Positions 355-17,005 of a stretch of 38,742 bases of DNA are shown here, one piece after another. The notes under the pieces are model-generated. The model was not told where the DNA came from. It did no database searches and saw only the letters and a list, made by a program, of their open reading frames with translations. Origin of the DNA: an uncultured Clostridia bacterium (GTDB taxonomy: Bacteria; Bacillota; Clostridia; Christensenellales; Aristaeellaceae). Made by a program: the position numbers and the translations under genes. The stretch's first letter is position 1; the number at the start of each line of letters is the position of its first letter. Location: the NCBI GenBank assembly GCA_946407745.1, contig CAMJPQ010000032.1, positions 1 through 38,742 of the forward strand, written 5' to 3'.

Positions 355-1477
355 TTTCAGTCCACCCGAAGCCTTTCTGTGCAGTCTCATAAAGCTGTCG
401 GCTCTGCTCTTTCAGCAAGCCATCCCGGAAATGTTCGTATATCCGGGTGGAAGAAAGGCTGGCATGCCGCAGTTGATGCTTGATGCTCAGTTCGTCCCAG
501 CCTGCCTCTAACCGCGCAGTTGCGCAGCCATGGCGGCACATGTGGGGATGAACAGAAACGCCTACTGCTTTGCTGATTCGCTTAAATAGCTTTTCAACGG
601 TATCCGAACACATGGGCTGTCCGGCAGTCGGGCCAGCAAGGTTCAGAAACAGGTACTCGCTGCTGTAGGGCTGGCGCTCATGAATACAGTAGGCAGAGAC
701 CGCCTCCAGCACATCATTAGGCAGGTAGACCGCGCCAGCTGCCTTGCGCTTCACATGTGTTCCATTGATATTCCCCTCACGCGGCACAATGTTGATTTTA
801 CTGTCCCACACTTCGAGATCGGCCAAATGTAACCCCAGCGTTTCGCCAAGCCGAAGGCCGCCTTCATACATGATGCCTACGACAGCTTTGTCACGCCAGT
901 AATGGCACTCCGCAATTATTGCCTTGTATAGTTCTGGGGTAACGAATTCAAGTTGCTCTTTATCTGGAGATATATGAAACAGGCTCTTGCGTATGATGTG
1001 CTTCTTCTGAACCATTTCATAGAGGAATGACTTAAACCGGGCCGGTGCCACTCCCTCCCGATAAACGTGGAGTGGATCAGCTACTCCGTCACGTGCCAGA
1101 TAGTCATAGAAGCTGAGCACAGTCTCTATGATCACATTGATTGTCTTCGGCTTGCGAGCAACCGGCACCGGGCCGACGAACAGGATATTCTTTCCGGACA
1201 ATGTGTCGGGATGCTGGAGCCATAGCAGAAAATCTCCGAGCACATCCAATGGGCCAGCATTCGGCTGTGAGGCTATTTTGAGTAGATCGATTTCCCGGAG
1301 TTCCAGATAGTCTCCATACAGCTTGAGATGCTGGGCATACGATAGCAGTGTATTGTCGGCACGTCCCAATGTATCCAAGAACTTCAGATAGCGGTTGAAA
1401 TGCACAACCGGATGGTGTTGGGAATCAATAATGATCCAGCGCTCGCCATGATCCGTAATAACCGGCTGTACTTTCAT
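335..1477 (-). CDS. Tyrosine-type site-specific recombinase (Tn554 TnpA-like)
   Basis: This 380-residue protein is a phage-integrase-family DNA breaking-rejoining enzyme. The N-terminal third looks like a core-binding domain (DNTLLSYAQHLKLYGDYL). The catalytic domain shows the arginine in YEGGLRLGETLGLHL, an H-x-x-R box in HPHMCRHG, a further conserved H in LRHASLSSTR and the nucleophile Y in RIYEHF, so the active site looks intact. I chose ATG 1477 because GGAGG lies eight bases before it; the longer GTG start at 1486 lies within that signal. It overlaps the next recombinase, as in two- or three-recombinase transposons. It probably mobilises an element extending to the left of the window. 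Its upstream side faces the defence operon, so the island at 1.7-23.6 kb may or may not belong to the same element. Confidence 0.85.
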   Translation of the reverse strand: MKVQPVITDHGERWIIIDSQHHPVVHFNRYLKFLDTLGRADNTLLSYAQHLKLYGDYLELREIDLLKIASQPNAGPLDVLGDFLLWLQHPDTLSGKNILFVGPVPVARKPKTINVIIETVLSFYDYLARDGVADPLHVYREGVAPARFKSFLYEMVQKKHIIRKSLFHISPDKEQLEFVTPELYKAIIAECHYWRDKAVVGIMYEGGLRLGETLGLHLADLEVWDSKINIVPREGNINGTHVKRKAAGAVYLPNDVLEAVSAYCIHERQPYSSEYLFLNLAGPTAGQPMCSDTVEKLFKRISKAVGVSVHPHMCRHGCATARLEAGWDELSIKHQLRHASLSSTRIYEHFRDGLLKEQSRQLYETAQKGFGWTENDPDSE

Positions 1478-1541
1478 CTCGGCCACCTCCCCGTCAGCAA
1501 GCGTGAAGCAGTCTGAGGTTATACTGGCACCGGCTAAAAGA

Positions 1542-1589
1542 CAAGAGAGAGTGCCTGTCTTTCGTCATTTTGACAGGCACTCTCTCTTG
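1542..1589 (-). terminator. Perfect 18-bp inverted repeat, probable terminator of the defence operon
   Basis: Bases 1542-1559 and 1572-1589 are exact reverse complements (18 bp) around a 12-base loop. Read on the minus strand the stem is followed by a T-rich stretch (TCTTTTAG), so it can end transcripts arriving from the operon that stops at 1720. It also lies just upstream of the recombinase gene, so a role as an element end or insulator is possible. Confidence 0.6.
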
Positions 1590-1719
1590 CATATTTGGGA
1601 TCAGTATTGTATTGTCACACTTGCTTTTGCTCATGAGCAGGATAGGGCAACGCAGAGGTGCGACCTGAGCGGCCCATGAGATTTGGCAAGGGAGTGGCGC
1701 TTAACGGCTCCACTCTTTT

Positions 1720-3435
1720 TCATGTATTGAAGTACTGCCGGAGGTAGTTTCGGAGCGCAGGATCACAAACATATACGAAGGCTCCGCGAATACCTCGGGT
1801 CATGAGCGTAGAATAGATATTGATGATGTAATCTCGAAGAGCTTCATAGTCTCCGCTAACAGCCCGGCCCAGGTTGTCCTTGTAATTCTCCTGAATCACT
1901 TCAATCCGGCGGTTGATCCGATCATAGGTAATCTCCGGGCCAAAGATAACGCCAACGTAATTCAGATCATAGCCCTGGACCGTATGGATGCAGCCGACCT
2001 CATATGGCAGCCGATCAGAATTAATCCAGTCAGTATAGGTCCGGTTCCACAGATAGCCTCGGCCAATCTTGATGTCTCGGACATCGGTATCCCTTGGAGT
2101 GCCCTTCGAGATCCAGGGCCATGCGTAACCGGCAACGCCACAGGACAGTCCGACCTCAGCATCCATGCGGTTGATCTCGTCCATCATGGCGTCGACATCT
2201 TCGAAGAAGCGCAGCGAGTAATTCTCAAACGGACCATGCGCTGCAGTAGCCCGGCTATGAAGAACATCCTTCACATACTCAATGTAGTCGTCTCCGCCAA
2301 GGCAGCGGAGCTGCGATGACAGCGGAATCCGAGTCAGGCTCCGATAGCGGAAGATGCGGTCGAACATGCCGGAAGGAATATCCGAGGGTTTGACAGACTG
2401 TTCCGGATCATAGAAGAGCAGCTGCATCCGACTGCAGGCCATAAGCCAGTCCAACTCGGTGGCATTCTGCGGCAAACCTAACAGTTCGTTGTTCTTATCA
2501 TATGCCGGATACTGCGCAAGGGCTTTGCGCTGGCGCAGCCGGTGTGCCTCATCGCATACCAGTAGGTCAAACTTGCCGCTTTGTGCAGCTTTCGGCACCT
2601 CCACCGGGCTGAGAATCATATCGGACGAAAGGCCGCGCACAGTATTGAAAACATTCCGGAGCGTCTGTCGGAGTGACTGCATGGGAACAACGAAGCCGAT
2701 CTTGAGCGGCTTATTGGGATTGATCAGCGCTTGGATAGCGCTGACATCTGTGGCCTCGGTGGAATCGTCGACTTCAAAGGTATTATTGGCCAGATCGGTT
2801 AGGAGCTTTAGCAGAAAAACAGCCAGGATCGTCTTGCCGGTTCCAGCACCGCCCTCGACAACGATGGTCTGCTCCATATCAAACTTCAGATAGCCAACCA
2901 GCAGATGCAGCACCTTATCGATGACTTTCTGTTGATCCTCTGTAAGCGACTTATATGGAGAATACTTGAACAGGTCGGAGTTCTCGATATCGGCAATGCC
3001 ACTGCGGACCAGCCCAAGTTCCTTCAAAGCATCCCAAATCTTCAGAAACTGGTGCTCATATTCCTCCCTGGCATAATAGTCGAAGTTCGCCAGGCCGCTG
3101 TTGCCGTTCTGGAGGCGATACTTGCCGTCTGCGGAGACATACTTGATCAGAAATGCTTCCAGGTCCAAAATGACGGACTTATTGAAAGTCGCATCCGTCA
3201 TGATGTGGATCACCTTGAGGCGCTGCCTTGCGGGGTTCTCCCAGTGTTGTGCCGCACGTCTGCCAGCGTTGAGGGTCTCGCCAATATATGCCTCGCGGGT
3301 CTCATCGTTATGGATGAAGTACACCACAGGCCAGTTCGTGCCGAATTCCCGCTGACCTGAACGCCAGGCCTCAATGGCGGCCTGGCTCTGAGCATTGAAG
3401 GGAAAATCACGGACCTGGAGGTCAAAGCTTATCAT
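1720..3435 (-). CDS. GIY-YIG nuclease fused to DUF2075 P-loop helicase-like ATPase
   Basis: The 571-residue protein has two parts. Residues about 37-98 form a GIY-YIG nuclease domain (VVYFIH, then YIGET, with Arg and Glu candidates R59/R60 and E93). Residues about 160-570 form a DUF2075-type superfamily 1-like ATPase: Walker A GGAGTGKT (195-202), DEAH box (295-298), a late motif GCIHTVQGYDLNYVG (481-495) and a motif-VI-like region LMTRGIRGAFVY. It probably uses ATP to move on nucleic acid and cut it; the substrate is unknown. ATG 3435 is preferred over ATG 3492 because AAGGAG stands eight bases upstream, and this start overlaps the MazG-like gene by 14 bases, implying translational coupling. 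It is the last gene of the operon. Such proteins occur in defence islands. Confidence 0.8.
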   Translation of the reverse strand: MISFDLQVRDFPFNAQSQAAIEAWRSGQREFGTNWPVVYFIHNDETREAYIGETLNAGRRAAQHWENPARQRLKVIHIMTDATFNKSVILDLEAFLIKYVSADGKYRLQNGNSGLANFDYYAREEYEHQFLKIWDALKELGLVRSGIADIENSDLFKYSPYKSLTEDQQKVIDKVLHLLVGYLKFDMEQTIVVEGGAGTGKTILAVFLLKLLTDLANNTFEVDDSTEATDVSAIQALINPNKPLKIGFVVPMQSLRQTLRNVFNTVRGLSSDMILSPVEVPKAAQSGKFDLLVCDEAHRLRQRKALAQYPAYDKNNELLGLPQNATELDWLMACSRMQLLFYDPEQSVKPSDIPSGMFDRIFRYRSLTRIPLSSQLRCLGGDDYIEYVKDVLHSRATAAHGPFENYSLRFFEDVDAMMDEINRMDAEVGLSCGVAGYAWPWISKGTPRDTDVRDIKIGRGYLWNRTYTDWINSDRLPYEVGCIHTVQGYDLNYVGVIFGPEITYDRINRRIEVIQENYKDNLGRAVSGDYEALRDYIINIYSTLMTRGIRGAFVYVCDPALRNYLRQYFNT

Positions 3436-3745
3436 ACTTCGTGCTCCTTCCCTTGCTCTTCTCGACGGGATACTTCTGCGCACTGACGGCAAGCTTGCGC
3501 TTGACGATTTCGATGGGGTCCAGGCCGAGCTTGCTGGCCAGCAGCAGGCAGTAATTCAGCACATCCGCCAGTTCCTCCTCGACAGCTGCCGGATCAGCGT
3601 CATCGCTCCACTGATAGCATTCGAGCAGTTCTCCTGCTTCAATGGAGATAGATTTGGCCAGGTTCGCCGGACTGTGAAATTGATCCCAATCCCGCTCCTC
3701 AGTGAATTTGACAACAAGTGCCATCAGTTCTTGAATGTCGCTCAT
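3422..3745 (-). CDS. MazG-like nucleotide pyrophosphohydrolase
   Basis: This 107-residue all-alpha protein carries the MazG/dCTPase-type metal-binding signature: IEAGELLECYQW with paired glutamates, followed by EEELADVLNYCLLL (ExxxD). The family hydrolyses (d)NTPs to monophosphates and pyrophosphate. ATG 3745 is chosen because AAGGAG lies nine bases before it; the upstream in-frame ATG (3754) is part of that signal. The gene sits between a coiled-coil protein and the GIY-YIG/DUF2075 protein in the defence operon. By inference it may deplete or clean nucleotides during phage infection, but an ordinary housekeeping role cannot be excluded. Confidence 0.8.
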   Translation of the reverse strand: MSDIQELMALVVKFTEERDWDQFHSPANLAKSISIEAGELLECYQWSDDADPAAVEEELADVLNYCLLLASKLGLDPIEIVKRKLAVSAQKYPVEKSKGRSTKYDKL

Positions 3746-3764
3746 TCCGGCCATCTCCTTCGTG

Positions 3765-4133
3765 TCACTTTGTGGATAATTCGTCCAGCAATTCGTCTAG
3801 CGTCATGCCGCTTTGCTTCAGGGAAGCAAGCAACCGGTCAAGTTTCTCCGACTCATCCCTTCGCTGTGCTCGGAGCTGAGCCTTCTCTTCTTTCGACAGC
3901 GGATGGTCTCTTTCCTCCACCAGCCGTTCGCGCCGTGCAGATAGCTGGGCCAGCTTCTCCTTCGTGGCAGCCAGTGATGCCTGATGCTTTGCCAGCGCTT
4001 CTTGGTCTCGCTTCACAATGGCGTCCCGCTGAGCTTGGAGCTTCAGTGTTGACGCTATCATGATGTCCAGTTCATGTATACGCTCGTCAAGTGGCCTGCG
4101 ATGATATCCGCCACGCTTTGATGCCTTCTCCAT
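3765..4133 (-). CDS. Small charged coiled-coil protein, function unknown
   Basis: The protein has 122 residues. An Arg/Lys-rich N-terminus (EKASKRGGYHRRPLDERI) is followed by a long, strongly charged coiled coil over roughly residues 20-95 and a short acidic tail (MTLDELLDELSTK). The coiled coil suggests oligomerisation and the basic head suggests nucleic-acid contact; both are inferences. ATG 4133 is preferred because GGAGG lies eight bases upstream; longer in-frame starts up to 4196 lack a good site. It lies between the SEC-C and MazG-like genes of the operon with short gaps. I do not recognise a named family. Confidence 0.65.
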   Translation of the reverse strand: MEKASKRGGYHRRPLDERIHELDIMIASTLKLQAQRDAIVKRDQEALAKHQASLAATKEKLAQLSARRERLVEERDHPLSKEEKAQLRAQRRDESEKLDRLLASLKQSGMTLDELLDELSTK

Positions 4134-4231
4134 CATGTTCTCCTCCACAGTGCGTTCTATGGCTACTGCAATTACCATGTTAGCATACAACGCCACTGTT
4201 TTCGAGGAAGGCTTTCAAGGTTTCAAGGCAG

Positions 4232-5269
4232 TCATAGGGAGAAGAAATCAACAACCGCCGGAAGCAGTCTACTCGCATAAGTGTCATCTGTGGGAGCCAG
4301 ATCAACGAACATGCTTTGAAAGGCATGCTGCCGAACAGGGTCTAGCTTTTCCCATGAACTAGGTCTTATGGCAATGTTTTCAGTGCTTCTGATGATAGTA
4401 TTGTTCACAAAGTTTTTTCTTTCATCAGCTGATAACGACGATAGCCGGACAGATATGTCAGTAAAGAGCGTGTCAAATTTACTAAGCCATGCAAAAATGG
4501 CAATCGTTAATTCTCCTTCAGGAAATACTGAGAAATATAAGTGACGCATTGGTGCGCTTTCATCCAGTATGTTCTGAATCGGCAACTGGTCGAAGCCTGC
4601 TGTGGGGACCTCTTGACCTGTTGCTGCAAAATTGGCAGCACCGGGAAACTCCCAGATAAAGCTTGTCAGCACAGCATAATCATTGGCTAGCAAAGCTTTG
4701 TCGAAAAGCTTTTTTTCGTCTGCAAAATCCTTTGTCGCCAGGTCAAAACCTATGCCGAAAAGATTTGCCGTTCCGAGTAGCCTCTGCATTTCAAAGGCGT
4801 GCCTCTTCTTGTGATACTCAAATGCAAATGCTCTGTAAATGTGAAGAAATACTTGCTCGGTGGTTCCTGAAAAAGGAACATCTTCGATTGGTTGAAAGAG
4901 GGTTTTATCATGGTATCCACAGAAGCCTGTAAACACTGTGGCTGAATTCAATCCAATCTTCTTCAGTAATGAGCTCTCAAGCATATGCTCACCGAAGACA
5001 GGCATATAAACAAAACCATCTTCGGCAATTCGGCTCAAAACTTTTCCTTTGGGAATCGTATGAGCATTAATAATCGTATCAGAGCAGTGCGTATGGTCTG
5101 GAAATAAACACTCTTTAAAATTTGACTTCTTTTTTCCTTGGTTTATGAGAGAAAACAGGCTTTGGTCGTGGCTCCGCTGACTTCCTTGGTTTCTTCCAAG
5201 GCAACAGTTCTTGTATTTCTTACCGCTTCCGCAAGGACATGGATCATTTCTACCGACTTTTTTGCTCAT
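4232..5269 (-). CDS. SEC-C motif protein with HNH-like zinc site, defence-associated
   Basis: The 345-residue protein opens with a SEC-C zinc motif (GRNDPCPCGSGKKYKNCC, residues 6-23). Residues about 50-135 contain a Cys/His pattern, CLFPDHTHCSDTIINAHTIP, then a second block FTGFCGYHDKTLFQPIE. This spacing resembles a degenerate HNH/zinc-finger fold seen in uncharacterised SEC-C proteins from defence contexts. The C-terminal 200 residues are helical with no motif I can name. The start is 14 bases after the DUF499 gene and lacks a clear Shine-Dalgarno sequence, so translation may depend on coupling. A nuclease or nucleic-acid sensor role is plausible, but key catalytic residues are not certain. 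Confidence 0.65.
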   Translation of the reverse strand: MSKKVGRNDPCPCGSGKKYKNCCLGRNQGSQRSHDQSLFSLINQGKKKSNFKECLFPDHTHCSDTIINAHTIPKGKVLSRIAEDGFVYMPVFGEHMLESSLLKKIGLNSATVFTGFCGYHDKTLFQPIEDVPFSGTTEQVFLHIYRAFAFEYHKKRHAFEMQRLLGTANLFGIGFDLATKDFADEKKLFDKALLANDYAVLTSFIWEFPGAANFAATGQEVPTAGFDQLPIQNILDESAPMRHLYFSVFPEGELTIAIFAWLSKFDTLFTDISVRLSSLSADERKNFVNNTIIRSTENIAIRPSSWEKLDPVRQHAFQSMFVDLAPTDDTYASRLLPAVVDFFSL

Positions 5270-5283
5270 TGATTTACTATTGA

Positions 5284-8200
5284 TCAGTTGTCAAAGCCGA
5301 AGTCTTCAACATGCAACGTTCGGCAGTTTTCCGTTACTGTCCGCACTGTAGGAACCGGTGTGCCATCCGGCATAGTTGCGTCAACAAGCAACCGGATTTC
5401 CACCTTCGCGCCATTTACTTGCATGAGGTGATTGATTACCTCGTCCATCAGCGAACCGAGGCTCTTGATTACGCGAGTATTGTCCAGCGTTGTCGTCATG
5501 CCAAAGTGTGTATTGGTAGGCACAACTGGCTTTGGCGGCTGAGGATCGATCGGTCCAGGTCCGGGATTTGGATCAGGAGTGGGCTTAGGCGGAATGGGAT
5601 CAGGACGTGGAGGCGTAGGCTCGACTTCTGAAGCTTTCTGCTTTAGCGCCGGCAACAGCTTGACGATAAGACCAGAATTGTCAACGAATCCAATATATTG
5701 GTTAATCTTCAGCCCAAGATAGCGCGTTCCATCAAACGCATCAGCATAAGCAAAGAATTCTTCAGAATTAACTCCGGCTTGGATGGCCTCTTTGAGCACA
5801 TCGATGGAAGTAAGGCGCGGTAAATAACAGTAGGTGCAGAGTTGTTTCCAGAGTTCTCCAACATTCTTGTGGTTTCCATCACCCCACAGGAGCTTGTCCA
5901 GTTCCATAAGGAGAAGCGCAGGTGCCCATTTGCTGATCAGCTGCTCGTTCTGCTCCATCTTTCGAGCAGCCTTTGACACGATGGTATCCGTTCCGCCCCG
6001 GATACTGATGGTTTCCCAAACGATATCGCTTTTGCTCACATCAAGGTCAATATAAGGCACAAGCAGCCAGCAATACGTTTCTCTGACCCGATCCTCGATG
6101 GTTCGCTCACAGCGTTCGAGCATGTTCTGTGTTTCACGCTCTTGAGCCTTATCCAGGTTAAGATCAACGGTGTCATCTTTAATAGATTTCCATGCCAAGA
6201 ACTGACGCGCTGCCTCCTTCAACCCGGTCATAGCAGTCTGATCAGGAGCGATAAAGGCCAGCATATTCCGATAAATACGCGGCGATTGCCCACGGTTATT
6301 CAAAATATCAGTAGCCGCTGCAATAGCATGATCAGTGGGAATATTCGTCTTGTATGTGGCAGAAATTGGAAGAACGACGAGGCCAACATCCTGATCGTCA
6401 GAAACGTCAGCAGAGCTGGCAGGGTTGATGTGGAGTCGAGCGAAAGGCCGCTCTTTCCGGATTTCCCGGAGTCTCCGCTCGATTTCCATCTCTACGTTTT
6501 CCTTGGATTGCTGGCTTGCACGGTCCTCGGCTGTCTTCCGAAGAGTAGGTCGCGTATCATACCAGAAACGCTCCGCAGAAGGATTGGTGTAAAGATAGGT
6601 CAGACTAGTTTGGAGTGTATTCAATGCGTCGTTGAATGTTGCAATGTTTTCACCGGGCTGGATGGTGCCAAGACGCACTCTGGATGCTTCCAGGCCACGG
6701 ACCGATTGCTTCCGTTCGCTGGGAGCAGAGCCAAGCATGATTGTACGAGCAACGCGACGGCACGCCATCAGTTGACCAAAGCGAGGAATGCCCTGGTCTT
6801 TCTGATACGGAATGGAGTCCTTTCCGTCAACTTCATGATCCACAATGGAATTCCAGTTATCACCTACGTGCCTGGTCAATTCATCACGGACGGCGGGGAC
6901 ATCAAGTGTCATCGAACCGGGCATAATCATCAGCCCAGCATCTTGATTCATCCATAGGTCGTGAATCACCGCAGCCATGAGGCGCAGTACACCACGGGTC
7001 TTCTGGAAATGCTCAATTGTAGCCCAGTCTTCATAGAGACGGTCAAACACTTCTGGATGAATGGGATAACACGACTGCATCCTGGCGAGATAGTCGACTT
7101 CCTTGGCTTCAGTTGGGAAATCGGCAGCGTTGTCCTGATACATTTGGCTGAAAGCCATGCAAACCTGATCACGCTTACCTTCGTCCTTACATGACTGGAA
7201 GAGACGACGACGCACAATCTCGAAGCCTTCATTGGCTGCTACAGGTTTCCAGATGGATTCCATACGGCCAAATGTGTGCTCAATAGCCGCCAATGCTTCC
7301 TTGCCGCCACCTTCGCCAACCTCGATCTCACTCTCCGGGATAGACGCCACGACCAGGCTATTCTCGCTTGCCCGTGCTGCTTCCGTAAGTTCCTGGATGA
7401 AAGTAATGAGGTTGTCGAACGAACCGGCTGGCAAGTTGTCCTTGCGCCATAGTTTCTTAGCATAGGCAACAAGCTCATCAATCAGGATGACGCAAGGCCC
7501 GCAGGAGTTGAAAAGATCAATCAAAGCCTTCGAGCCAGGTGCAACGCCCTTCTTGTCAGCCTCTTTGATGAAATCATAGACCTTGGGCACGCCAGAATCC
7601 ACGGCCAGCTGTGCTGCCATTTCGCCCCAGAGAGTATTGATCGTCACACCGGGAAGTTGAGGTTCTCTACGGCTCTTTGAAGGATCAAGTGCGGTACCAA
7701 CAAGAACAGCAACTCGACAGATTGGCGGCATGGTTACGCCAGCTTCGGACAGCACTTCTTTCAGGCTGCTGACCTTTGCAACAGGGGCTTTTCCACGCAG
7801 CGTATGATACAATGCCAACATGCTGTGTGTTTTGCCACCGCCAAATGCCGTCTTCAGTTGGATAACCGGCTCACCATCCGAACCGGAAACTCTGCGTAAA
7901 GCCTGAACAAGAAGTCCCTTGATGCCCTCGGTCACGTATGTACGAGAAAAGAATTCAATAGGGTCCCTGTACTCATATGCACCTTCACCGCGTGCGACCT
8001 GGGCCAGATCAGCCGCAAACTCGGCCTTCTTATATCTGCCCTGTGCCACATCAGGGTGGGGTTCCATAACGGTTCTCCAACTTGGAAGCCCCGCTACTGG
8101 CGTCTTTTGCATAACGCCAGACCCTTTCTTTGCTGGATCAGCAGCGACATTCACGGCGCTTGCAGAGCCTTGTGCACTGCCATAGCGCAAGGTGCGGATC

Positions 8201-8649
8201 AGTCGTTGGAGGCCTTCTGTAGTTTCACCGCTCGTATCAATTTTGTCTGCCAGCAAAGACATAGTATCGAGCGCACGCTCTGTCTCTTTATCCGTGAAAT
8301 CGGTGCCCGTAAAATGAGCCCAAGTAACACGAGCATTCTTGATCTCTTTGCACCAGCTCCGAGCATTGGCAGGCAAGCGATACTTGAACAAATTAGACCA
8401 ATGAAGATCAATCAAATTCAAGCAGAAATTGATGTCCAAGCTGTCCTGGCGGTCAGCAAAATCGCTGCTATAGGAGAGCTTCTCCGCATCACGCGCATTG
8501 AATTCTGAAAGAACTCGGACAACGCCATCCTGCCACCACATATCATTAATCTTGTAGTCTGGAATCGTCTGCAATTGCTGCAGGATATATCCCGCAAGTG
8601 GCTCACGGAGAATCTGGAATGCTTCATCAATAATGCTGTGGTTGGTCAT
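5284..8649 (-). CDS. DUF499 P-loop ATPase with N-terminal Swt1-like HEPN domain (Hma-type ATPase)
   Basis: The protein has 1121 residues. Residues about 1-125 resemble the Swt1-family HEPN domain, and R107-V-T-W-A-H112 is an intact RX4H motif, the signature of HEPN ribonucleases. After a linker comes a DUF499 ATPase: Walker A FGGGKTH near 269-275 and Walker B VILIDE near 387-392. A proline-rich linker (about 1005-1043) precedes an ~80-residue C-terminal domain. The start at ATG 8649 has AAGGAGG nine bases upstream; the longer GTG at 8703 overlaps the methylase stop but has no ribosome site. In the helicase-methylase-ATPase defence candidate this is the ATPase. The HEPN domain suggests an RNA-cutting abortive effector, which is inference. 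Confidence 0.85.
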   Translation of the reverse strand: MTNHSIIDEAFQILREPLAGYILQQLQTIPDYKINDMWWQDGVVRVLSEFNARDAEKLSYSSDFADRQDSLDINFCLNLIDLHWSNLFKYRLPANARSWCKEIKNARVTWAHFTGTDFTDKETERALDTMSLLADKIDTSGETTEGLQRLIRTLRYGSAQGSASAVNVAADPAKKGSGVMQKTPVAGLPSWRTVMEPHPDVAQGRYKKAEFAADLAQVARGEGAYEYRDPIEFFSRTYVTEGIKGLLVQALRRVSGSDGEPVIQLKTAFGGGKTHSMLALYHTLRGKAPVAKVSSLKEVLSEAGVTMPPICRVAVLVGTALDPSKSRREPQLPGVTINTLWGEMAAQLAVDSGVPKVYDFIKEADKKGVAPGSKALIDLFNSCGPCVILIDELVAYAKKLWRKDNLPAGSFDNLITFIQELTEAARASENSLVVASIPESEIEVGEGGGKEALAAIEHTFGRMESIWKPVAANEGFEIVRRRLFQSCKDEGKRDQVCMAFSQMYQDNAADFPTEAKEVDYLARMQSCYPIHPEVFDRLYEDWATIEHFQKTRGVLRLMAAVIHDLWMNQDAGLMIMPGSMTLDVPAVRDELTRHVGDNWNSIVDHEVDGKDSIPYQKDQGIPRFGQLMACRRVARTIMLGSAPSERKQSVRGLEASRVRLGTIQPGENIATFNDALNTLQTSLTYLYTNPSAERFWYDTRPTLRKTAEDRASQQSKENVEMEIERRLREIRKERPFARLHINPASSADVSDDQDVGLVVLPISATYKTNIPTDHAIAAATDILNNRGQSPRIYRNMLAFIAPDQTAMTGLKEAARQFLAWKSIKDDTVDLNLDKAQERETQNMLERCERTIEDRVRETYCWLLVPYIDLDVSKSDIVWETISIRGGTDTIVSKAARKMEQNEQLISKWAPALLLMELDKLLWGDGNHKNVGELWKQLCTYCYLPRLTSIDVLKEAIQAGVNSEEFFAYADAFDGTRYLGLKINQYIGFVDNSGLIVKLLPALKQKASEVEPTPPRPDPIPPKPTPDPNPGPGPIDPQPPKPVVPTNTHFGMTTTLDNTRVIKSLGSLMDEVINHLMQVNGAKVEIRLLVDATMPDGTPVPTVRTVTENCRTLHVEDFGFDN

Positions 8650-8699
8650 CTGTTCATTCCTCCTTGCCCAGAGTTTAAGCGGAATTTGCCCGTATGCGG

Positions 8700-11516
8700 T
8701 CACTCATCAGGCGACATTTGCTTCATTACGTCGTCTAGTGTAATCTGCTCCGGCGTTTCTGCCTTGATAGAGGCGGCCATAGAAATAATCTCTGGCCAGG
8801 CAACAACCAAATTGTTGTACGCATAGCCCTCTTGTGCCCATCCTTTACGCTCACAGATCGTATATAGGCGATATGCCAAAGCTTTAGCATTCTCGGCATT
8901 GCTTCCATACATAGCAGCTAGAACGATGGCACAACCTTTGATACCTTCCTTCTCAAGCTTATGAGCGAGCTGCTGGGTCAGGAGCCAAATACATTCTTCA
9001 TTCGTGTTAATGCTATCCGGGAGCTCATCACGAGTTAGTAGATGGACACGTCCTTTTGCAGCTAGAAGAATATGATGATCAGCCAAGGCTTGCAAAGATG
9101 TGTTCTTTGCGGTAGCCAGTACCTGTGCTTCGCCAAAGGCTATCTCGTTGAAGGCATATTGCTGAAAGAGATCAACGCAGAAACGGCTACCAGAATCCAG
9201 TTCGCCTTCCTGCTCATTATAGAAGGCATCGAGTTCTTGGTTAATAATTTGAAGTGCCGCTCGAACGGACATGGGTTTACCATCCGCTTCAAGAACTGAC
9301 CTATAACGACTAAACACTCCAATTCCCGGGCCAATAGCAGATTGTGCCAAGTCTACAGGCGCTATATTGGCACTCTGTAGTTTTTCCAATGCCGGACGCA
9401 TTTCGCGATGGAGGATGTTGATAAACTCGCGGCGAGTCACACTGCGGGCATTCTCGTCACGTTTACGGCAAACGAGCACAATGGAAGATGCGAGGGCATT
9501 TGTTCCAGAGGCAATAGCACGGTTCACCATTTCAGTTCGCATCGGCCAAGTACCTGTGATAGAAAACCCTGCTTTGATGATAGCAGAAAGCATTGTTTCC
9601 CACCCAGATGATGATGTCTGCGCATCAGCATCGGTATCGCTTTGTTTAAACGCGTAGTAGATGGTTACAGGGATGTCTTCGGTGGCGTATTGATACAGTT
9701 GACAACAAGTTCTGTACATTCCATCTTCGAAGAACGTTTTTGCCTTTAACATACTCCCGTCATGACGATATGGCGTCGCAATTAGCTCTTCCGCCTTGGG
9801 AACAAGCATTGTATGAAATAATTGTGGATATGTTCCTTTTAGCGATTGTCTTAGCCAAATGTAAAAGAAATCTGATAGGTCTGCATAACCAATATTGTCA
9901 TAATACGGTGGATCAGTAGATATCATTACATCCCGTTGTCCACAATCAGTTTGCGCATCTCGCTGCTTTGCACTCCCAAGAGTACTGGCAAATTGCAAGT
10001 GCCTTATGCCCTTGATCATTCGTTCAAACAGATTATTAAAGCTTCCCGTAGAATTACTGAAAACATTGCATTCAGCATAATCCCACACCATAGGAATAGC
10101 CTGACGACTAAAAGTGTCTCTAATTTGAGTATTGTTCACGTGCCAACCGCAAACAGAAGAAGTCTGGTTTGTCATTTGATCCACCAAGAAGGCCAAATAT
10201 ACGCCAACTGCTTCTCCATATGCTCTTGCACCTCGCCCGCCATTGGCCAGGCCAATATGGTCGTTGAATAAACCTGCTGCCATCGCATCTTCTTCTGCAC
10301 GCTTTTGCGCATCCTGAACGAGCGAAGAAAAGGTTGTCAGTGCGGTAAGCTGCCGGTTGGTAAATAAGCTTGCATAAGTATCCATGCCGAATGCTGGAGT
10401 ACTAAACCAACGGGGGTTAGTGGGCAACATCCCATCCGGGTATTCTTCTGGCATGGACACACAAGCAGCATTAATTTGCTCAACGCTTGGTGTAAGATAT
10501 ATCCGCCCTTGATTGCTTTCTGCAACAATTGCAATCATTTGTGCACCCAAACGATGTGCTTTTCCTTCCTCCTTAACGTACTCATCCAGAGTTGTTTCGC
10601 CACAGGCTGGGCAAACAAAGGTGGCCCCCCTTCCTTTCTTAGGTTCCGGAATATCATTAGGTAGAGAAGGGCCAGAATACACTTTGAAATCGATATGGTC
10701 ACCGTTATGAACAGGAGAAATCCATGCGTATTTTGCTTTCTTTTTTGATAGTATGTAACTACTGGTGCAGGGTAGAGTACACCCACACGCAGGATTTGGG
10801 CACTTCACCGTTCTGGCCCAAATCCAAGCAATTACTGTCGCTTCTCCGCCGCCCTGCTCATTCGGCACTTTCACTTTGGGATATAAGTGTCCAATTCTTT
10901 CAAAGGCTTTATCCTTCATCCATTCACCATAGTACCGAACATCCTCTGCTAATCCCGAAGCACCTGTCCAGACTCCAGCATGAGTGGTTCCAACTTGACC
11001 ATTGCGCACATCCGGGTTCACTGGTGCTTGCCCAGCAAACTTCGGTGGGATTTCAATCATGGCCTTATTGATCATCACAGCTACAGGATTCAGGTCATGA
11101 GCATGAGCCTCCAACCCCAGCCGCTGGGCTTCCAGCGGGATTGCCCCACCACCGGCAAAGGGGTCGAGCAGAGCCGGCGGATTGTTGTTCGTGCTCTTCA
11201 TAATCTCTGCTCGTGCCTCTGCCAGCACCTGCGGATTATTGCTATTTTCCCATACTACAAGCCGTGACAGTATGTCAAACAGACGTTGCCGTTCTTTCTG
11301 CTGTTCTTCCTCGGTCGGAAATTGCTCCGGATGACTAGATGGATCATCCACCAGAGATGCCCATATGACAGCGCGTGCTGTTGCAAGGGGACGACGAGCC
11401 CACCAGAGGTGGAGGGTCGAAGGGTGACCATGCCGAATGGATTTCTCTCTCGCAGATTCTGCATTAATGGCTTCCAGAGGCAATGCGACCTCAATCAGTT
11501 TCTTTTTGTATGCCAT
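8700..11516 (-). CDS. DUF1156 DNA methylase (Hma-type methylase)
   Basis: The 938-residue protein begins with the typical DUF1156 segment (KKKLIEVALPLEAIN, then HPSTLHLWWARRPL). An S-adenosylmethionine site LLDPFAGGG (about 117-124) is followed by DLNPVAVMINKA. Zinc-ribbon-like cysteines lie around residues 230-320 (CPNPACGC, CPACGE). The catalytic motif DPPY is at 535-538 (DPPYYDNIGYADLSDFFYIW). The DPPY motif indicates amino-methylation of adenine N6 or cytosine N4; the target sequence is unknown. ATG 11516 is preferred (GAAGGG eight bases upstream) over GTG 11525, which overlaps the helicase stop. It is the second gene of the operon. It probably marks self DNA, analogous to other restriction-like systems. 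Confidence 0.87.
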   Translation of the reverse strand: MAYKKKLIEVALPLEAINAESAREKSIRHGHPSTLHLWWARRPLATARAVIWASLVDDPSSHPEQFPTEEEQQKERQRLFDILSRLVVWENSNNPQVLAEARAEIMKSTNNNPPALLDPFAGGGAIPLEAQRLGLEAHAHDLNPVAVMINKAMIEIPPKFAGQAPVNPDVRNGQVGTTHAGVWTGASGLAEDVRYYGEWMKDKAFERIGHLYPKVKVPNEQGGGEATVIAWIWARTVKCPNPACGCTLPCTSSYILSKKKAKYAWISPVHNGDHIDFKVYSGPSLPNDIPEPKKGRGATFVCPACGETTLDEYVKEEGKAHRLGAQMIAIVAESNQGRIYLTPSVEQINAACVSMPEEYPDGMLPTNPRWFSTPAFGMDTYASLFTNRQLTALTTFSSLVQDAQKRAEEDAMAAGLFNDHIGLANGGRGARAYGEAVGVYLAFLVDQMTNQTSSVCGWHVNNTQIRDTFSRQAIPMVWDYAECNVFSNSTGSFNNLFERMIKGIRHLQFASTLGSAKQRDAQTDCGQRDVMISTDPPYYDNIGYADLSDFFYIWLRQSLKGTYPQLFHTMLVPKAEELIATPYRHDGSMLKAKTFFEDGMYRTCCQLYQYATEDIPVTIYYAFKQSDTDADAQTSSSGWETMLSAIIKAGFSITGTWPMRTEMVNRAIASGTNALASSIVLVCRKRDENARSVTRREFINILHREMRPALEKLQSANIAPVDLAQSAIGPGIGVFSRYRSVLEADGKPMSVRAALQIINQELDAFYNEQEGELDSGSRFCVDLFQQYAFNEIAFGEAQVLATAKNTSLQALADHHILLAAKGRVHLLTRDELPDSINTNEECIWLLTQQLAHKLEKEGIKGCAIVLAAMYGSNAENAKALAYRLYTICERKGWAQEGYAYNNLVVAWPEIISMAASIKAETPEQITLDDVMKQMSPDE

Positions 11517-11521
11517 GTTCG

Positions 11522-14500
11522 TCACCCTTCTATCTGACCATTATGCAGGAGGTCAGCTATTTCATAGTTTACACTGCAAGCACCTTGATCTGGAGACTTG
11601 CCGAATGGCCTACGGATATAGACCGGCCTACCAGGAGTGGTTCCATCGACCTCCACCACTGCCAGAATATATTCGTCAGGCTTGTTTAGCGCTGTCAGGA
11701 TTTCATTCCGTGTCACAGTAACGGTGGTAGAGCCTTTCTGTCGGCCCTTCACTTCGATGAACCGCAGGCAAGGTCCGCCATGCCGCCTATCAACAGGGAT
11801 CACAGACTCGATATCATATCCGACACAGTCAGCGCTCACATCTCTCGGCAGATAGCCTTCTGTTTGCTCTCGCCGGAAGACAGCGCTCATGGCTGCTTTT
11901 TCTATTGCTGTCCGATTCTTACCAAAGAGGCTTCCTGTATTCGGGATGCCCATAAGTTTGTTCAACAAGCCCAGCGGAATAATCAGCGCACCACCCATGA
12001 TCACTGGCGGACACGGAGATACTTTCTTCTCCTGCTCTAATTCCGTGAGTCTGCGGTCCATTCGCGCCTGGAGCTCATCGGCTCTCCGCTGTGCCATGCT
12101 GCTATTAAGCTTGGCGTTTGGCTTCCCGGCTGCTTCCTTTTCTTTCAGGTCTAGGGCTCGCATATCCCAGTATTGGATCTCCTGGGTCAGTCGAGTCTTT
12201 ACAGCACTTGCTACCTTATCGGCCATTTGCTGTCGATGCCGTTTGACTTCAGCATAATGCGTCGGCACAATATGCTCCACGGCATAACCAATTGCAAGTT
12301 CTTCCACATTTGCCGTCAGCCAGCTTTGCTCCTTTGCGAAAGCATGGATAGCTTCACTTTCGGCATCGGTTGCCGGGCGATAGTCCAGATACGGAGCAAA
12401 GCCAGCATTCCGGGCTTTTCCGTCTTCTTTCAACTCGACGAACTGTAAGCGCTTGGAGACAACCCTCCGAGTGCCATTTTCCAGGATAGTGCCGTCCTGG
12501 ATAGCATTCTCAATATAGAACAGCAGCCGAGCATCCTCGCTTGGATCAGTCTCGTCGATCAGGATAGAGCCTCGCTTTAGCACATCGGCGTTCTGCTCGC
12601 GGATCAGATCAATGACTGCCTCCAGCAACGGATGCCCAGGGCAAATCTGGTCCGCAATCGGCAGGCCAGGCACAGTACAATTCTCCTTGTCGAAACACAC
12701 CCGCTCATAACGAGCAGCAACCGGAGTGCCAAAGCCAATGAGCTGATCCCTGGAGCGGACTTTGTAGGGGACCGAGAGAATCTCATAGCGGCCCTCTTCC
12801 TTTTTGCGGATGTTGCCGCCCAGTGAGCGGAAGGCCGCCAGGAAGAATGCCTCAATAAAGTGCGGCTGGAGTTTGTGAGCCTCCATGCGCTCCATCTCTT
12901 CACGAATGGCCATGACCTTGTGCACATCCATGGTGTCCTCGGTCAAAGCGCGCTCATCCAACAGCTCGCGGAGCTTTTTCTTGTCCAGCGAGCGGTCCAC
13001 TACCTGATAGAGCTTGGCCCTAGTTTCTGGCATATTGCCATAGCGGATGGCTTCGATCATCAGGTCGCGGAGCGGTTTGTTGTCAAAAGTCACTTTTCCG
13101 AGAATATCGAAGACCTTTCCGCCCAGCGCTTCACGCTCTTCTTCCAGCTTTTCAAACAGCCGCTGATAGACCGCGCCCTCGCGTGTTTCCTTTGAAACCA
13201 TGTTCCAGAGGTAGCAAACCTCGGTCTGCCCAATTCGGTGGATACGGCCAAAGCGCTGTTCGAGGCGGTTGGGATTCCAGGGCAGGTCATAGTTTACCAT
13301 CAAGTGCGCACGCTGGAGGTTGATGCCTTCTCCAGCCGCATCGGTGGCGATCAGGATGCGGACATCCTTATCCTGCTTGAATAGGGTTTCAACCTTCCGG
13401 CGATCATCGCGCAGCATGCCACCGTGAATCGTGACCACGGCTTCGTCCTTACCGAAGAGCGTTCTGATTTTATTCGCCAGATAGTTGAGGGTATCACGGT
13501 GCTCTGTGAAGATTATCAGTTTCTGCGGACTGCCGTTGGCGTCCCGCATCCGCTCGTCATCCTGGAGGATTGTAGAAAGCTCGTCCCATTTGCGGTCAAT
13601 GCCGCTCATACGGACTTGGTTGGCCATCGCTTCCAGACGGCGGAGAGTTTCAATTTCCGCTTCGAGTTCGGAGATTGTCCTGGCAGCAGACGCTTGGTCA
13701 ACAACCTTTTCTTCGGTATCCTCGAGTTCGTCGGAGGGCATATCATCCAGGTCCTCAGGTTCCTCGGGGATATCAAACTGCCATGGCATCTCGCTGGCCT
13801 TTTTGCCAAGCCGCAGCTCATTCAGCTGTGTTTCGAGCCGTTCGTGCCTCCGGTGGAGGGATTGATATATGGCCTCTGGTGAGGACGCAAGACGACGCTG
13901 CAAAATGGTCAAAGCAAAGCCCACAGAGCTGCGCTGTTTTCCGTCCAGATTCTCTGCGCGGTTAAACTCCTCCGTGACATATGTCGTCACGTTGGTATAT
14001 AGCTGCGCTTCCATAGGCGAAAGGTCATAGTTGACCGTGTACGCTATCCTTTCAGGGAATAGTGGCGTGCCATCAAACTTTAGGAGGTCCTCTTTAACCA
14101 GACGACGCATCACGTCGTCAACATCGATGGACTGGTTGCTTGTGCGCACAGCGCCTTCAAAGCGGTCCGGATCAACCAGCGACATGAATAGCTGGAAATC
14201 CACTTCCTTTCCATTATGAGGAGTTGCTGTCAGCAGCAGGAAATGCCGTGTGATACCGGACAGCATCCGGCCCAGCTGGAAGCGCCGAGTGTACTTAACC
14301 TCTCCACCCCACATGGTGGCGGACATCTTATGCGCTTCGTCGCAAACGATCAGATCCCAGTCCGTTGCGGCCAGCTTTTGTTGGAGCTCATCATTTCGCG
14401 CCAGCTTGTCCAACCGGGCTATGCAGTAATTGACCTCGTTGAAAATGTTCCCGGTAACCGCGGATTCCAAGCGGTCATTCGTCAGGATTTCAAAGCGCAG

Positions 14501-15028
14501 GTGGAACTTGGAGAAGAGCTCATCCTGCCATTGCTCGGCAAGATTACCAGGCGAAACGATAAGGCAGCGTTTCAGATCACCGCGGATGATCAGTTCTTTC
14601 AAGAGCAGGCCCGTCATGATCGTCTTGCCTGCGCCAGGGTCATCTGCCAGAACAAATCGGAGCGGGAGCCGAGGGAGCATCTCTTCATAAACGGCGGAAA
14701 TCTGATGAGGAAGCGGCTCAATGGCTGATGTATGGACAGCCAGGTAGGGATCAAAGAGGTGGGCCAGATCGATCCGGTATGCTTCCGAAACCAGCCGAAG
14801 CTGCTCGCCAGGAACGTCAAAAGACCACGGCAGGCTTTTCTTTACTATCGTAAGGGACGGCTCCGCGTCACGGAAAAGCAGTTCGGAGCCGGTCGTTCCC
14901 TGATTGGTCTTATAGAATACCTCTACACTGGCAGTACCATACCACTTGGTCGAGACAACAACAATTGGTTCCCCCGCCAGTATGCCTATGACAACGCTGC
15001 CAGCAGAAAGATCCTCCAGCTTCGCCAC
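11522..15028 (-). CDS. SNF2-family helicase with C-terminal DUF3883 domain (Hma-type helicase)
   Basis: The protein has 1168 residues. The SNF2 motor shows motif I DDPGAGKT (129-136), DEAH (230-233), LLTATPHNG, then the second RecA lobe with ATDAAGEGINLQ and RFGRIHRIGQ. An acidic insertion (EEPEDLDDMPSDELEDTEE) separates the lobes. The last ~120 residues contain a DUF3883 domain (GYDIESVIPV, then RFIEVKGR), whose D...EVK arrangement resembles PD-(D/E)xK nucleases. The GTG start at 15028 has AGGAGG eight bases upstream; a TTG start 39 bases earlier is unlikely. As first gene of the operon it sits behind a TATAAT promoter. It likely translocates on or remodels invading DNA; cleavage by the DUF3883 part is possible but unproven. 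Confidence 0.88.
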   Translation of the reverse strand: MAKLEDLSAGSVVIGILAGEPIVVVSTKWYGTASVEVFYKTNQGTTGSELLFRDAEPSLTIVKKSLPWSFDVPGEQLRLVSEAYRIDLAHLFDPYLAVHTSAIEPLPHQISAVYEEMLPRLPLRFVLADDPGAGKTIMTGLLLKELIIRGDLKRCLIVSPGNLAEQWQDELFSKFHLRFEILTNDRLESAVTGNIFNEVNYCIARLDKLARNDELQQKLAATDWDLIVCDEAHKMSATMWGGEVKYTRRFQLGRMLSGITRHFLLLTATPHNGKEVDFQLFMSLVDPDRFEGAVRTSNQSIDVDDVMRRLVKEDLLKFDGTPLFPERIAYTVNYDLSPMEAQLYTNVTTYVTEEFNRAENLDGKQRSSVGFALTILQRRLASSPEAIYQSLHRRHERLETQLNELRLGKKASEMPWQFDIPEEPEDLDDMPSDELEDTEEKVVDQASAARTISELEAEIETLRRLEAMANQVRMSGIDRKWDELSTILQDDERMRDANGSPQKLIIFTEHRDTLNYLANKIRTLFGKDEAVVTIHGGMLRDDRRKVETLFKQDKDVRILIATDAAGEGINLQRAHLMVNYDLPWNPNRLEQRFGRIHRIGQTEVCYLWNMVSKETREGAVYQRLFEKLEEEREALGGKVFDILGKVTFDNKPLRDLMIEAIRYGNMPETRAKLYQVVDRSLDKKKLRELLDERALTEDTMDVHKVMAIREEMERMEAHKLQPHFIEAFFLAAFRSLGGNIRKKEEGRYEILSVPYKVRSRDQLIGFGTPVAARYERVCFDKENCTVPGLPIADQICPGHPLLEAVIDLIREQNADVLKRGSILIDETDPSEDARLLFYIENAIQDGTILENGTRRVVSKRLQFVELKEDGKARNAGFAPYLDYRPATDAESEAIHAFAKEQSWLTANVEELAIGYAVEHIVPTHYAEVKRHRQQMADKVASAVKTRLTQEIQYWDMRALDLKEKEAAGKPNAKLNSSMAQRRADELQARMDRRLTELEQEKKVSPCPPVIMGGALIIPLGLLNKLMGIPNTGSLFGKNRTAIEKAAMSAVFRREQTEGYLPRDVSADCVGYDIESVIPVDRRHGGPCLRFIEVKGRQKGSTTVTVTRNEILTALNKPDEYILAVVEVDGTTPGRPVYIRRPFGKSPDQGACSVNYEIADLLHNGQIEG

Positions 15029-15197: not shown

Positions 15198-15731
15198 ATG
15201 GGCGAGAAAGAATTGCGCCAGCACCGGTGTTGTTTTACCGGCCACAGACCAGAGAAGCTCCAAGTTACTGAGGAGAATGTCAAAGCTTGGCTGAACAGCC
15301 AGATAGATAACGCCATTTCACAGGGGTTTGTCACTTTCATTACCGGCTGCGCTATGGGTGTGGATATATGGGCTGGTCAGATCGTGGTTGAAAAGCGAAA
15401 GCAAAACCCTGCGTTACACCTGATAGCCGCGTCCCCTTATCCTGGATTTGGCTTTCGGTGGAATGAAGAATGGCGCAGGCAGTATAAACAACTCTTGAAA
15501 GATGCAGACTTAATCCGATACGTAAGCGAGCGGTATACTGATGATTGTTTTATGAAGCGGAATATTTGGATGGTTGATCATAGCAACCTTGTTATCGCAG
15601 TATATAATGGGGCAGCAGGCGGAACAATGAATACCATAGAATATGCCAAGCAGCAAGGAATCAAAGTCATCCAGGTGATTTCAGCGCTGGACGGCCATGG
15701 AGGCGCAGATGACAGAGCAACATCTTTCTGA
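15198..15731 (+). CDS. SLOG-family protein (DUF1273/YpsA-like)
   Basis: The 177-residue Rossmann-like protein has the DUF1273 signatures: CCFTGHRPEKL near the N-terminus, then FITGCAMGVDIWAGQIV and a C-terminal NLVIAVYNGAAGGTMNTI. SLOG proteins bind nucleotide-like ligands, and many are proposed sensors of signal nucleotides in defence systems. It is transcribed divergently from the defence operon with about 170 bases between them, and its stop overlaps the next small gene. The start ATG 15198 has a modest AGGTGA site. A sensor or ligand-processing role for the neighbouring operon is inference. Confidence 0.75.
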   Translation: MGEKELRQHRCCFTGHRPEKLQVTEENVKAWLNSQIDNAISQGFVTFITGCAMGVDIWAGQIVVEKRKQNPALHLIAASPYPGFGFRWNEEWRRQYKQLLKDADLIRYVSERYTDDCFMKRNIWMVDHSNLVIAVYNGAAGGTMNTIEYAKQQGIKVIQVISALDGHGGADDRATSF

Positions 15732-16014
15732 ACTAGATCAGTTGGCGCGAGACATTTATGACTATGCTGCCAGCAAGCTCACTGACTATTTCCTGAAAGA
15801 ATATGGAAACAGGAAAAGAGGCTCATTCGATGAACAGATGGAGGACTTTCATCTTGTTGCAGAGAGAGCCAGCATTTACCTCATGGGAAATGTACTTGCA
15901 ATTATGAATGAAGCAACGGTAGAGGAGAGCATCGCTGTTCACAATAAGCATCTGAGATCAATGGTTCAGACCATCAGGAGTATGTCCGCCAATACAAACG
16001 GGCTCCCCAACTGA
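15709..16014 (+). CDS. Small helical protein between SLOG and WYL genes, unknown function
   Basis: The protein has 101 residues, is mostly helical and acidic (LDQLARDIYDYAASKLTDYFL), and carries no motif I recognise. ATG 15709 follows GGAGG by five bases; an earlier in-frame ATG at 15697 is possible. It overlaps the end of the SLOG gene by 23 bases and is followed 13 bases later by the WYL regulator, so the three genes form an operon. It could be a partner of either neighbour. Confidence 0.65.
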   Translation: MTEQHLSELDQLARDIYDYAASKLTDYFLKEYGNRKRGSFDEQMEDFHLVAERASIYLMGNVLAIMNEATVEESIAVHNKHLRSMVQTIRSMSANTNGLPN

Positions 16015-16027
16015 AGGAGAGAACACA

Positions 16028-17005
16028 ATGCAGGAGCAAAGCAGGATTCTATTGGTTCTCCGTTATCTGCTTGACACCACGGATGCCGAGCATGAAGTCT
16101 CGACACGTGATATCAAGGCCATGCTGGAAAAGAATGGCATACAAGCCCCTGTCAGCCGGACGATAGATGCCGATGTGGATTTGCTTGTGGCCGCCGGGTA
16201 TGACATTATCAGGACGCATGTCAACGGCAGGCCGTCCTTCTACAGAATCGAAGAGCGTGATTTTGATACTGTGGAGCTGAAGGTGCTCATTGACGCGGTT
16301 GCGGCTTCTAGGTTTATCAGTATTGAAAAGAGCAAGCGAATCATCAAACACCTGGCCTCCCTTGCCGCGGTGAGTGACCGGCCCTATCTGGAGAGCGAGC
16401 TTGCCCATGTTCGGTCCATCAAGAAGGCCGTTGGCGGCACAATGTATGCTGCAGATGCACTTTTCAGGGCCATTGTGGCACGGAAGAAAGTCCAGTTCCA
16501 GATGATCGAGTACCGAGCACCGGATAAGGCTGTTGTTCCGCACCGGGACGGCAAGGTGTATGTGGTTTCCCCGTATGCAACAATATGGTCCAATGATCGT
16601 TACTATCTCCTGGCGCAAGAGGACGAACGCGATCTCATCATCACGCCCAGGCTAGACCATATCCGGAAGGTCAGGATACTTGCTGAGGACGCCATCCCTG
16701 CCCCAAAGAATTTTGACATCGGATACTATTACTCCAGCAGCTATAAGATGTACAGCGGGCCAGAAGAGGATGTTACCATTGAGTGCGAGAACAGCCTCTT
16801 GGGGAAGTTCATCGACCGCTTTGGCATGGACTTCGAATGCATTCCCGTCACAGACCATTCTTTCCAGGCCACTGTCAAAGCGTGCATCAGCAGCACCTTC
16901 TTTGGCTGGCTTCTCCAGTACGCAGGGAGAATGAAACCTGTTACCCCGGAGACGGCAGTCACGCAATACAGAGAGCAGCTCATGAAAGCCCTCGAGAGCC
17001 TGTAA
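16028..17005 (+). CDS. WYL-domain transcriptional regulator
   Basis: The 325-residue protein has an N-terminal winged helix (ILLVLRYLLDTTDAEHEVSTRDIKAML, residues about 6-65) and a WYL-type ligand domain (VVSPYATIWSNDRYYLLAQ, residues about 178-196), followed by a C-terminal WCX-like extension. AAGGAG lies eight bases before ATG. WYL regulators bind nucleic-acid-derived ligands or single-stranded DNA and often control defence operons. As the last gene of the operon divergent to the helicase-methylase-ATPase cluster, it is the best candidate for controlling that promoter. A good intrinsic terminator follows. Confidence 0.85.
   Translation: MQEQSRILLVLRYLLDTTDAEHEVSTRDIKAMLEKNGIQAPVSRTIDADVDLLVAAGYDIIRTHVNGRPSFYRIEERDFDTVELKVLIDAVAASRFISIEKSKRIIKHLASLAAVSDRPYLESELAHVRSIKKAVGGTMYAADALFRAIVARKKVQFQMIEYRAPDKAVVPHRDGKVYVVSPYATIWSNDRYYLLAQEDERDLIITPRLDHIRKVRILAEDAIPAPKNFDIGYYYSSSYKMYSGPEEDVTIECENSLLGKFIDRFGMDFECIPVTDHSFQATVKACISSTFFGWLLQYAGRMKPVTPETAVTQYREQLMKALESL

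Follow-up and report, generated by a model that had tools for sequence, protein, structure and literature searches.

Known systems and the locus

Operons in which a Swt1-like HEPN-DUF499 protein is accompanied by restriction-modification (R-M) components and an SNF2-DUF3883 protein were tabulated in 2013 (PMC3710099), and a candidate three-gene system of helicase, methylase and ATPase was named Hma in 2021 with PADLOC (PMC8565338). The same combination was classed in 2026 as Type-1 bacteriophage exclusion (BREX)-Related (BR) (PMC12839542). Type-1 BR is described as having a DUF499 ATPase, often with an active HEPN domain (Rx4-6H), the HEPN-fused form being found in 1370 of 2446 taxa, and its fold-level features are a TUDOR at the N-terminus of the helicase and an RRM at the C-terminus of the ATPase (PMC12839542). 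The predicted specificity of the methylase differs between sources (m5C in PMC8565338, N6 in PMC12839542), and according to earlier work cited in PMC12839542, there is experimental support for a role of HmaA in phage defence. Here, a run of seven genes that begins with such a system was analysed in an uncultured Clostridia bacterium, on contig CAMJPQ010000032.1 of assembly GCA_946407745.1. This contig of 38,742 nucleotides was taken whole and is referred to as the window.

The run consists of seven intact open reading frames (ORFs) arranged head to tail on the minus strand from 15028 to 1720, namely A (HmaA), B (HmaB), C (HmaC), D (a SEC-C protein), E (a charged protein), F (a MazG-like protein) and G (a GIY-YIG/SLFN-g3 helicase), and the ORFs together with Pfam and PADLOC matches confirmed the original prediction of a minus-strand run with these domains (Table 1). 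It is best explained, with a probability of roughly 0.9, as a block of defence cargo in a prophage-like element, assembled by accretion from Hma, a separable gene D, an orphan gene E and an autonomous F-G pair. The novelty of the locus lies in the F-G pair, a dCTP-pyrophosphatase-like enzyme with a nuclease-helicase whose function is proposed here from family resemblance, and not in a seven-gene operon.

The Hma core

Genes A, B and C were found to match the PADLOC families HmaA (PDLC00659), HmaB (PDLC00660/661) and HmaC (PDLC00662) in order, each at E=0, as had been expected from the first reading of the DNA, and A-B-C is the known Hma or Type-1 BR system. HmaA carries the Pfam domains SNF2, Helicase_C and NOV_C (residues 1055-1151 of a 1181-aa ORF), with the catalytic D and ExK of NOV_C being present in the window and in 23 of 24 aligned relatives (one gapped). 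The DPPY motif of HmaB is present and is kept in 26 of 28 relatives (two gapped), while the R-x4-H of the N-terminal Swt1-like HEPN domain of HmaC is intact, R being found in 17 and H in 16 of 18 relatives.

The helicase, methylase and ATPase thus form the same three-gene operon as Hma (PMC8565338), to which the window adds four downstream genes outside the definition. HEPN-DUF499, the DUF1156 methylase and an SNF2 protein with a C-terminal PD-(D/E)XK nuclease are shared with the operon of PMC3710099 and with Type-1 BR (PMC12839542), and the core features tested show no difference from the latter. Type-2 BR has a standalone DUF3780 protein and an HKD nuclease at the helicase N-terminus (PMC12839542); neither DUF3780 nor PLD (for the HKD nuclease) gave a Pfam match at E 1e-3 among the window proteins scanned. 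PglZ, the marker of Type-3 BR, was not matched by the ten proteins around the locus (best 25 families for HmaA). No HmaC match was found in viral contigs by a search reaching close relatives only; three virus records searched for HmaC gave no match either, which is uninformative. Judged by its families, HmaB would methylate host adenines and HmaC would assemble a scanning complex, with the HEPN RNase as a fallback, whereupon HmaA would translocate on unmodified DNA and cut it with its NOV_C nuclease.

Separation of the downstream genes from Hma

Genomes of the phylum were searched with HmaC, and at E 1e-20 a match was obtained in 66 of 398, counting the genome of the window itself. From these, 36 top-ranking loci (L143-L178; L-numbers are labels of the fetched comparison loci) were taken. 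Distant or partial matches make up most of the lower ranks and some of the 36. The order A-B-C was found in 27 of the 36 and another order in four, with A or B missing from the region in five. None of D, E, F and G was detected in any of these loci (phmmer, E 1e-3), of which 27 have at least 7.5 kb downstream of HmaC. Among the 17 closest, seven have an operon-like follower gene and no follower recurs. A conserved gene behind HmaC was rejected as well, with followers recurring only in L167, L169, L171 and L173, four distant loci with another gene order, and in the pair L162 and L163.

From the other side, a six-sequence profile of G was run against one genome per species (84,980 species) and the best 80 of at least 589 relatives were taken as G loci, 47 of them having 5 kb on each side. 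HmaB, HmaC, D and E are absent from all 80, and HmaA was found in one as a weak match (E 4.6e-5). The nearest relative among these, a locus of a Clostridia metagenome-assembled genome (L059; 83% identity in G), gives a single blastn match to the window (74.7%), which runs from 1719 to 3759 and, give or take a few bases, corresponds to F and G. In the searches from the Hma, G and D sides, none of the examined loci repeated the window's association of Hma with D-G.

It had been proposed that the last four genes belong to the Hma system, in which case D-G would be auxiliary effectors or regulators and the locus a new subtype. The tight spacing, the single strand and the overlaps would suit one extended seven-gene system, and auxiliary nucleases are reported beside BREX/BR cores (PMC12839542). 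However, D-G are absent among the auxiliary effectors named in the sections of that paper drawn on here, and SEC-C, MazG and GIY-YIG have no occurrence in its main text. The extended system was rejected on the absence of D-G from all 36 HmaC loci and of HmaB, HmaC, D and E from all 80 G loci, and the match to L059, which stops at the borders of F-G, also speaks against it; we regard it as very improbable. Within these samples, the proposed check of co-occurrence found the downstream genes without the core and the core without them. The further suggestion of a stacked second module fared better and is supported for F-G by the adjacency described below.

The F-G pair

F is present in 74 of the 80 best G loci and lies directly upstream of G on the same strand in 71, three of the other nine being cut by the contig end at G. 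In the samples studied, F-G is an autonomous two-gene module that is separable from Hma. No description of the pair was found in the literature searched, in which papers naming G otherwise would be missed. A MazG domain, which need not be that of F, appears as a predicted, untested defence domain in the DefensePredictor study (PMC13092281).

F matches dCTP pyrophosphatase 1 (E 3.7e-19), with the metal-binding ExxE/ExxD residues E39, E42, E61 and D64 conserved in 74 of 74 copies. The alignment with DCTPP1 / RS21-C6 (PDB 6sqw, 2a3q) covers residues 5-106 of 107, including the C-terminal KYP...SxG...KY. F differs from these enzymes in its coupling to a nuclease-helicase, and its substrate is putative.

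G matches PF09848, a family whose proteins are named DUF2075 in several plasmid annotations, at E 8.4e-56 (190 bits against a cut-off of 24), and its helicase residues K201, D295, E296 and H298 are kept in 80 of 80 loci. The N-terminal part alone scores 21.7 bits with PF01541, just under the cut-off of 22.6, with Y39 and Y50 being conserved in 78, R60 and E93 in 79 and G52 in 78-79 of the 80. These motif residues are shared with I-TevI (1mk0) and T4 endonuclease II (2wsh), to which the profile matches are weak (E 0.002 and 0.017). What sets G apart from those GIY-YIG endonucleases is the fusion of the domain to an SLFN-g3 helicase. In the PDB, G matches the AAA+ parts of ORC1 best (E 1.4e-5), and partial matches to PDC-S14, AbiO and Nhi of PADLOC (E 3e-6 to 4e-10) each cover part of G, none being full-length. 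A helicase on a Priestia plasmid differs in its N-terminus, where GIY-YIG is not matched, yet it follows a MazG-like gene.

F is predicted to hydrolyse a dCTP-like nucleotide and G to be a helicase-driven GIY-YIG nuclease. F and G would work jointly and probably form a second unit, linked to modification or to nucleotides and directed against invaders or at genome hygiene, and F-G would gain expression by its position behind the Hma genes.

A tree of 77 of the 80 loci and the window carries 13 group labels, with 16 label changes against a minimum of 12. Bacillota and Bacteroidota are among the labels, as are several candidate groups, Thermoplasmatota, Pseudomonadota, Bdellovibrionota and Actinomycetota; since many rows are metagenome bins, an individual label may be incorrect.

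Neighbours and possible roles of F-G

A PLD-DEAD-DUF3427 helicase is a recurrent neighbour of F-G, being found in eight loci by clustering. The copy in L075 matches the Type IV methyl-directed restriction enzyme of PADLOC (E 3.8e-207), and a direct search with it detected the helicase in seven of the 80 G loci (four Bacillota, three Bacteroidota), five of which also have a NUDIX hydrolase. It was found in none of the 36 HmaC loci, and it is also present in one viral D locus (L206). On a plasmid of L. plantarum, F-G occurs with a relative of this helicase and a NUDIX protein, and restriction-type genes adjoin F-G on both the L. plantarum and the Priestia plasmids. It is possible that PLD-DEAD-DUF3427, NUDIX and HNH_4 proteins form a composite system with F-G.

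Matches to PADLOC at E 1e-10 amounted to 129 families in 128 near neighbours and 61 in 130 distant ones, from random picks (130 from 202 and 130 from 184) in which families overlap and are not counts of distinct proteins. Since the distant set also held defence genes such as Cas1 and Cas2, along with other defence matches, an enrichment of defence genes near F-G is unproven and only suggestive.

F-G might instead be a housekeeping or repair unit, combining nucleotide-pool cleaning with the processing of stalled DNA and present here by chance. The resemblance of F to dCTP pyrophosphatase 1 and the 13 labelled groups of the tree would fit this, as would the unproven enrichment and the surroundings of F-G in L059, where no obvious defence gene was seen (translated ORFs by eye, no family search). 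However, a G-like match was found in just 21 of 245 genomes of the class (own included), mostly distant, unlike what is expected of a housekeeping gene, and the relative of a modification-directed restriction helicase in seven of 80 loci and on one plasmid, together with the restriction genes adjoining F-G on another plasmid, points away from such a role. We consider this explanation quite possible, at somewhat less than an even chance. It has also to be considered whether F-G is an undescribed and widespread two-gene restriction-like system, in which F, as a nucleotide-pool hydrolase, would give self-protection in place of a methylase by excluding modified dCTPs from the host chromosome, while the part of G would be to attack DNA that has modified bases or stems from an altered pool. 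This is suggested by the adjacency in 71 of 80 loci, the conserved catalytic residues and the recurrent modification-directed restriction helicase and NUDIX protein; it is an unlikely, tentative proposal. Within the favoured accretion of separate modules, a defence role of F-G is presumed.

Several further observations were made on these loci. F and/or G lie near PLD-DEAD-DUF3427, often with NUDIX, in L075, L063, L084, L083, L085, L067 and L134, and also in L055, three of the loci of this kind having an HNH_4 protein. Relatives of ADP-ribosylglycohydrolase occur at most 10 kb from F-G in five of the 80 (L068, L070, L075, L060 and L091). By eye, a second MazG-type small protein besides F is seen just upstream of F-G in L059 (9124-9444), and the SLFN-g3 helicases at L057:5320-7185 and L058:5275-7152 have a PD-(D/E)XK-like N-terminus instead of GIY-YIG, so that the nuclease half may be exchangeable.

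The SEC-C gene D and the orphan gene E

D possesses an N-terminal SEC-C zinc motif (PF02810) and a second set of conserved residues. Of 34 distinct relatives, all keep C54, H70, C117, H120 and D121, 33 keep C62 and A69, and 31 keep G115. The second set presumably resembles zinc-bearing HNH-type modules, a likeness that no tool confirmed, and no Pfam or PDB match was found for D beyond SEC-C. A search of the class with whole D matched 229 of 240 genomes and was swamped by the SEC-C motifs of other proteins; the first 40 residues were removed for the later phmmer and structure searches. Alignment A5 used whole D, and many of its 80 viral matches therefore cover the SEC-C motif only.

Relatives of D occur on plasmids and on IMG/VR viral contigs. 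Twelve D loci are without A, B, C, E, F and G, as are 31 of another 32 D loci from viral contigs, of which some overlap or are nearly identical and many have little flanking sequence. The exception, L201, is also without Hma genes. D thus looks like a separable cargo gene.

E had no match in plasmids or viral contigs and matched only itself in 240 genomes of the class; in 388 genomes of the phylum there was, besides itself, one match at E=0.007 with internal stops. The ORF of E stood, as first described, whereas its coiled coil is suggested by composition only, as E did no better than shuffles in a simple heptad test. No credible relative of E was found, and it may or may not be a partner of F-G.

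Gene layout and the prophage-like setting

The features of the window are listed in Table 1. Genes A and B are separated by 5 nt, B and C overlap by 4 nt, C and D are 14 nt apart, E and F 10 nt apart, and F and G overlap by 14 nt. The description of the operon as uninterrupted was right, the D-E gap of 95 nt (35 nt with the earlier start of E) being the widest and the sole sizeable one. For E, the best ribosome site (GGAGGAG) precedes ATG 4136/4133. The promoter-like site upstream of HmaA is weak, as one was found against 0.7 expected by chance, and scans of 1400-5600 for promoters and terminators gave results near chance. A shared transcript of the run is presumed.

Table 1. Features of the gene run and of the surrounding contig.
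Feature	Coordinates	Strand	Evidence
A, HmaA: SNF2 helicase with C-terminal NOV_C/DUF3883 (PD-(D/E)XK-type) nuclease domain	15028 (GTG)-11522	minus	PADLOC, Pfam
B, HmaB: DUF1156 DNA amino-methyltransferase (DPPY)	11516 (ATG) or 11525 (GTG)-8700	minus	PADLOC, PF06634
C, HmaC: Swt1-like HEPN fused to DUF499 AAA+ ATPase	8703-5284	minus	PADLOC, PF18731, PF04465
D: SEC-C protein with conserved C...C...AH...GFCxxHD module	5269-4232	minus	PF02810
E: charged orphan protein, 123 aa from start 4136 (ORF 4196-3765)	4136-3765	minus	ORF
F: MazG-like putative NTP pyrophosphatase, DCTPP1-like	3754 or 3745-3422	minus	PF12643
G: GIY-YIG nuclease domain fused to SLFN-g3 (DUF2075) helicase	3435 (ATG)-1720	minus	PF09848
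Promoter-like site TTTTCA-18-TATAAT, upstream of HmaA	15056-15085	minus	10/12 matches
Tyrosine integrase (context, outside the system)	335-1486	minus	PF00589, phrog_1 integrase
S24 (repressor or UmuD-like) protein	17146-17754		
HNH protein	20229-20678		
Phage SNF2 helicase	20757-22028		phrog_62
Tail-type proteins	34575-38267		PHROG

The contig appears prophage-like, as it has an integrase, S24 and HNH proteins, tail-type proteins and a phage helicase. For 34575-36419 the best PHROG match is labelled a minor head protein, most of the other labelled matches being tail proteins, and none of the proteins scanned matched a terminase or major capsid protein. The region between the integrase and the early genes is taken up by the seven genes, and this is a usual position of cargo.

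The G+C content is 0.536 in A, 0.475 in B, 0.509 in C, 0.429 in D, 0.546 in E, 0.535 in F and 0.529 in G, with steps between genes as a mosaic would have. Large steps (0.43 in D and ~0.64 at 24-32 kb) would also be seen if unrelated pieces had been joined in assembly or binning, and the window is one whole contig of a 194-contig draft with 3.01% contamination. However, the window contains no N, the frames are intact, and overlaps or gaps of 4 to 14 nt tie together A-B-C-D and E-F-G, so that such an artefact is hardly to be expected.

Some points weigh against the accretion of separate modules. The tight packing of seven genes makes co-expression and cooperation in this one host possible, and nine of the 36 HmaC regions reach less than 4.1 kb downstream. 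The G loci are the best 80 of at least 589 relatives, and F-G pairing weakens with distance, F being present in two of seven fetched, more distant plasmid G loci and in three of five viral ones, where its position and strand vary. In addition, the viral contig L201 has a relative of D beside F and G (2962-7053, F convergent); outside the window, D and F-G were seen together nowhere else.

Directly upstream of HmaA, 15198-17005 holds a divergent SLOG/YspA gene, a small ORF and a WYL-domain protein. WYL regulators have been reported near defence islands (PMC9122601), and the WYL protein could control the operon. Further along, at 25145-30946, a plus-strand ORF of 1933 aa, with BspA-type leucine-rich repeats near its end, overlaps a minus-strand ORF of 1473 aa; the two lie in a block with a G+C content of ~64%, compared with ~47-52% on either side.

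Significance

The locus shows that a defence system cannot be delimited by close operon spacing alone, as separable cargo seems to make up four of the seven genes. F-G is a two-gene unit whose pairing is kept in most of the closest relatives, in many phyla, and for which the literature searched holds no described function. If F-G is defensive, it would link the control of the nucleotide pool to the cutting of DNA.

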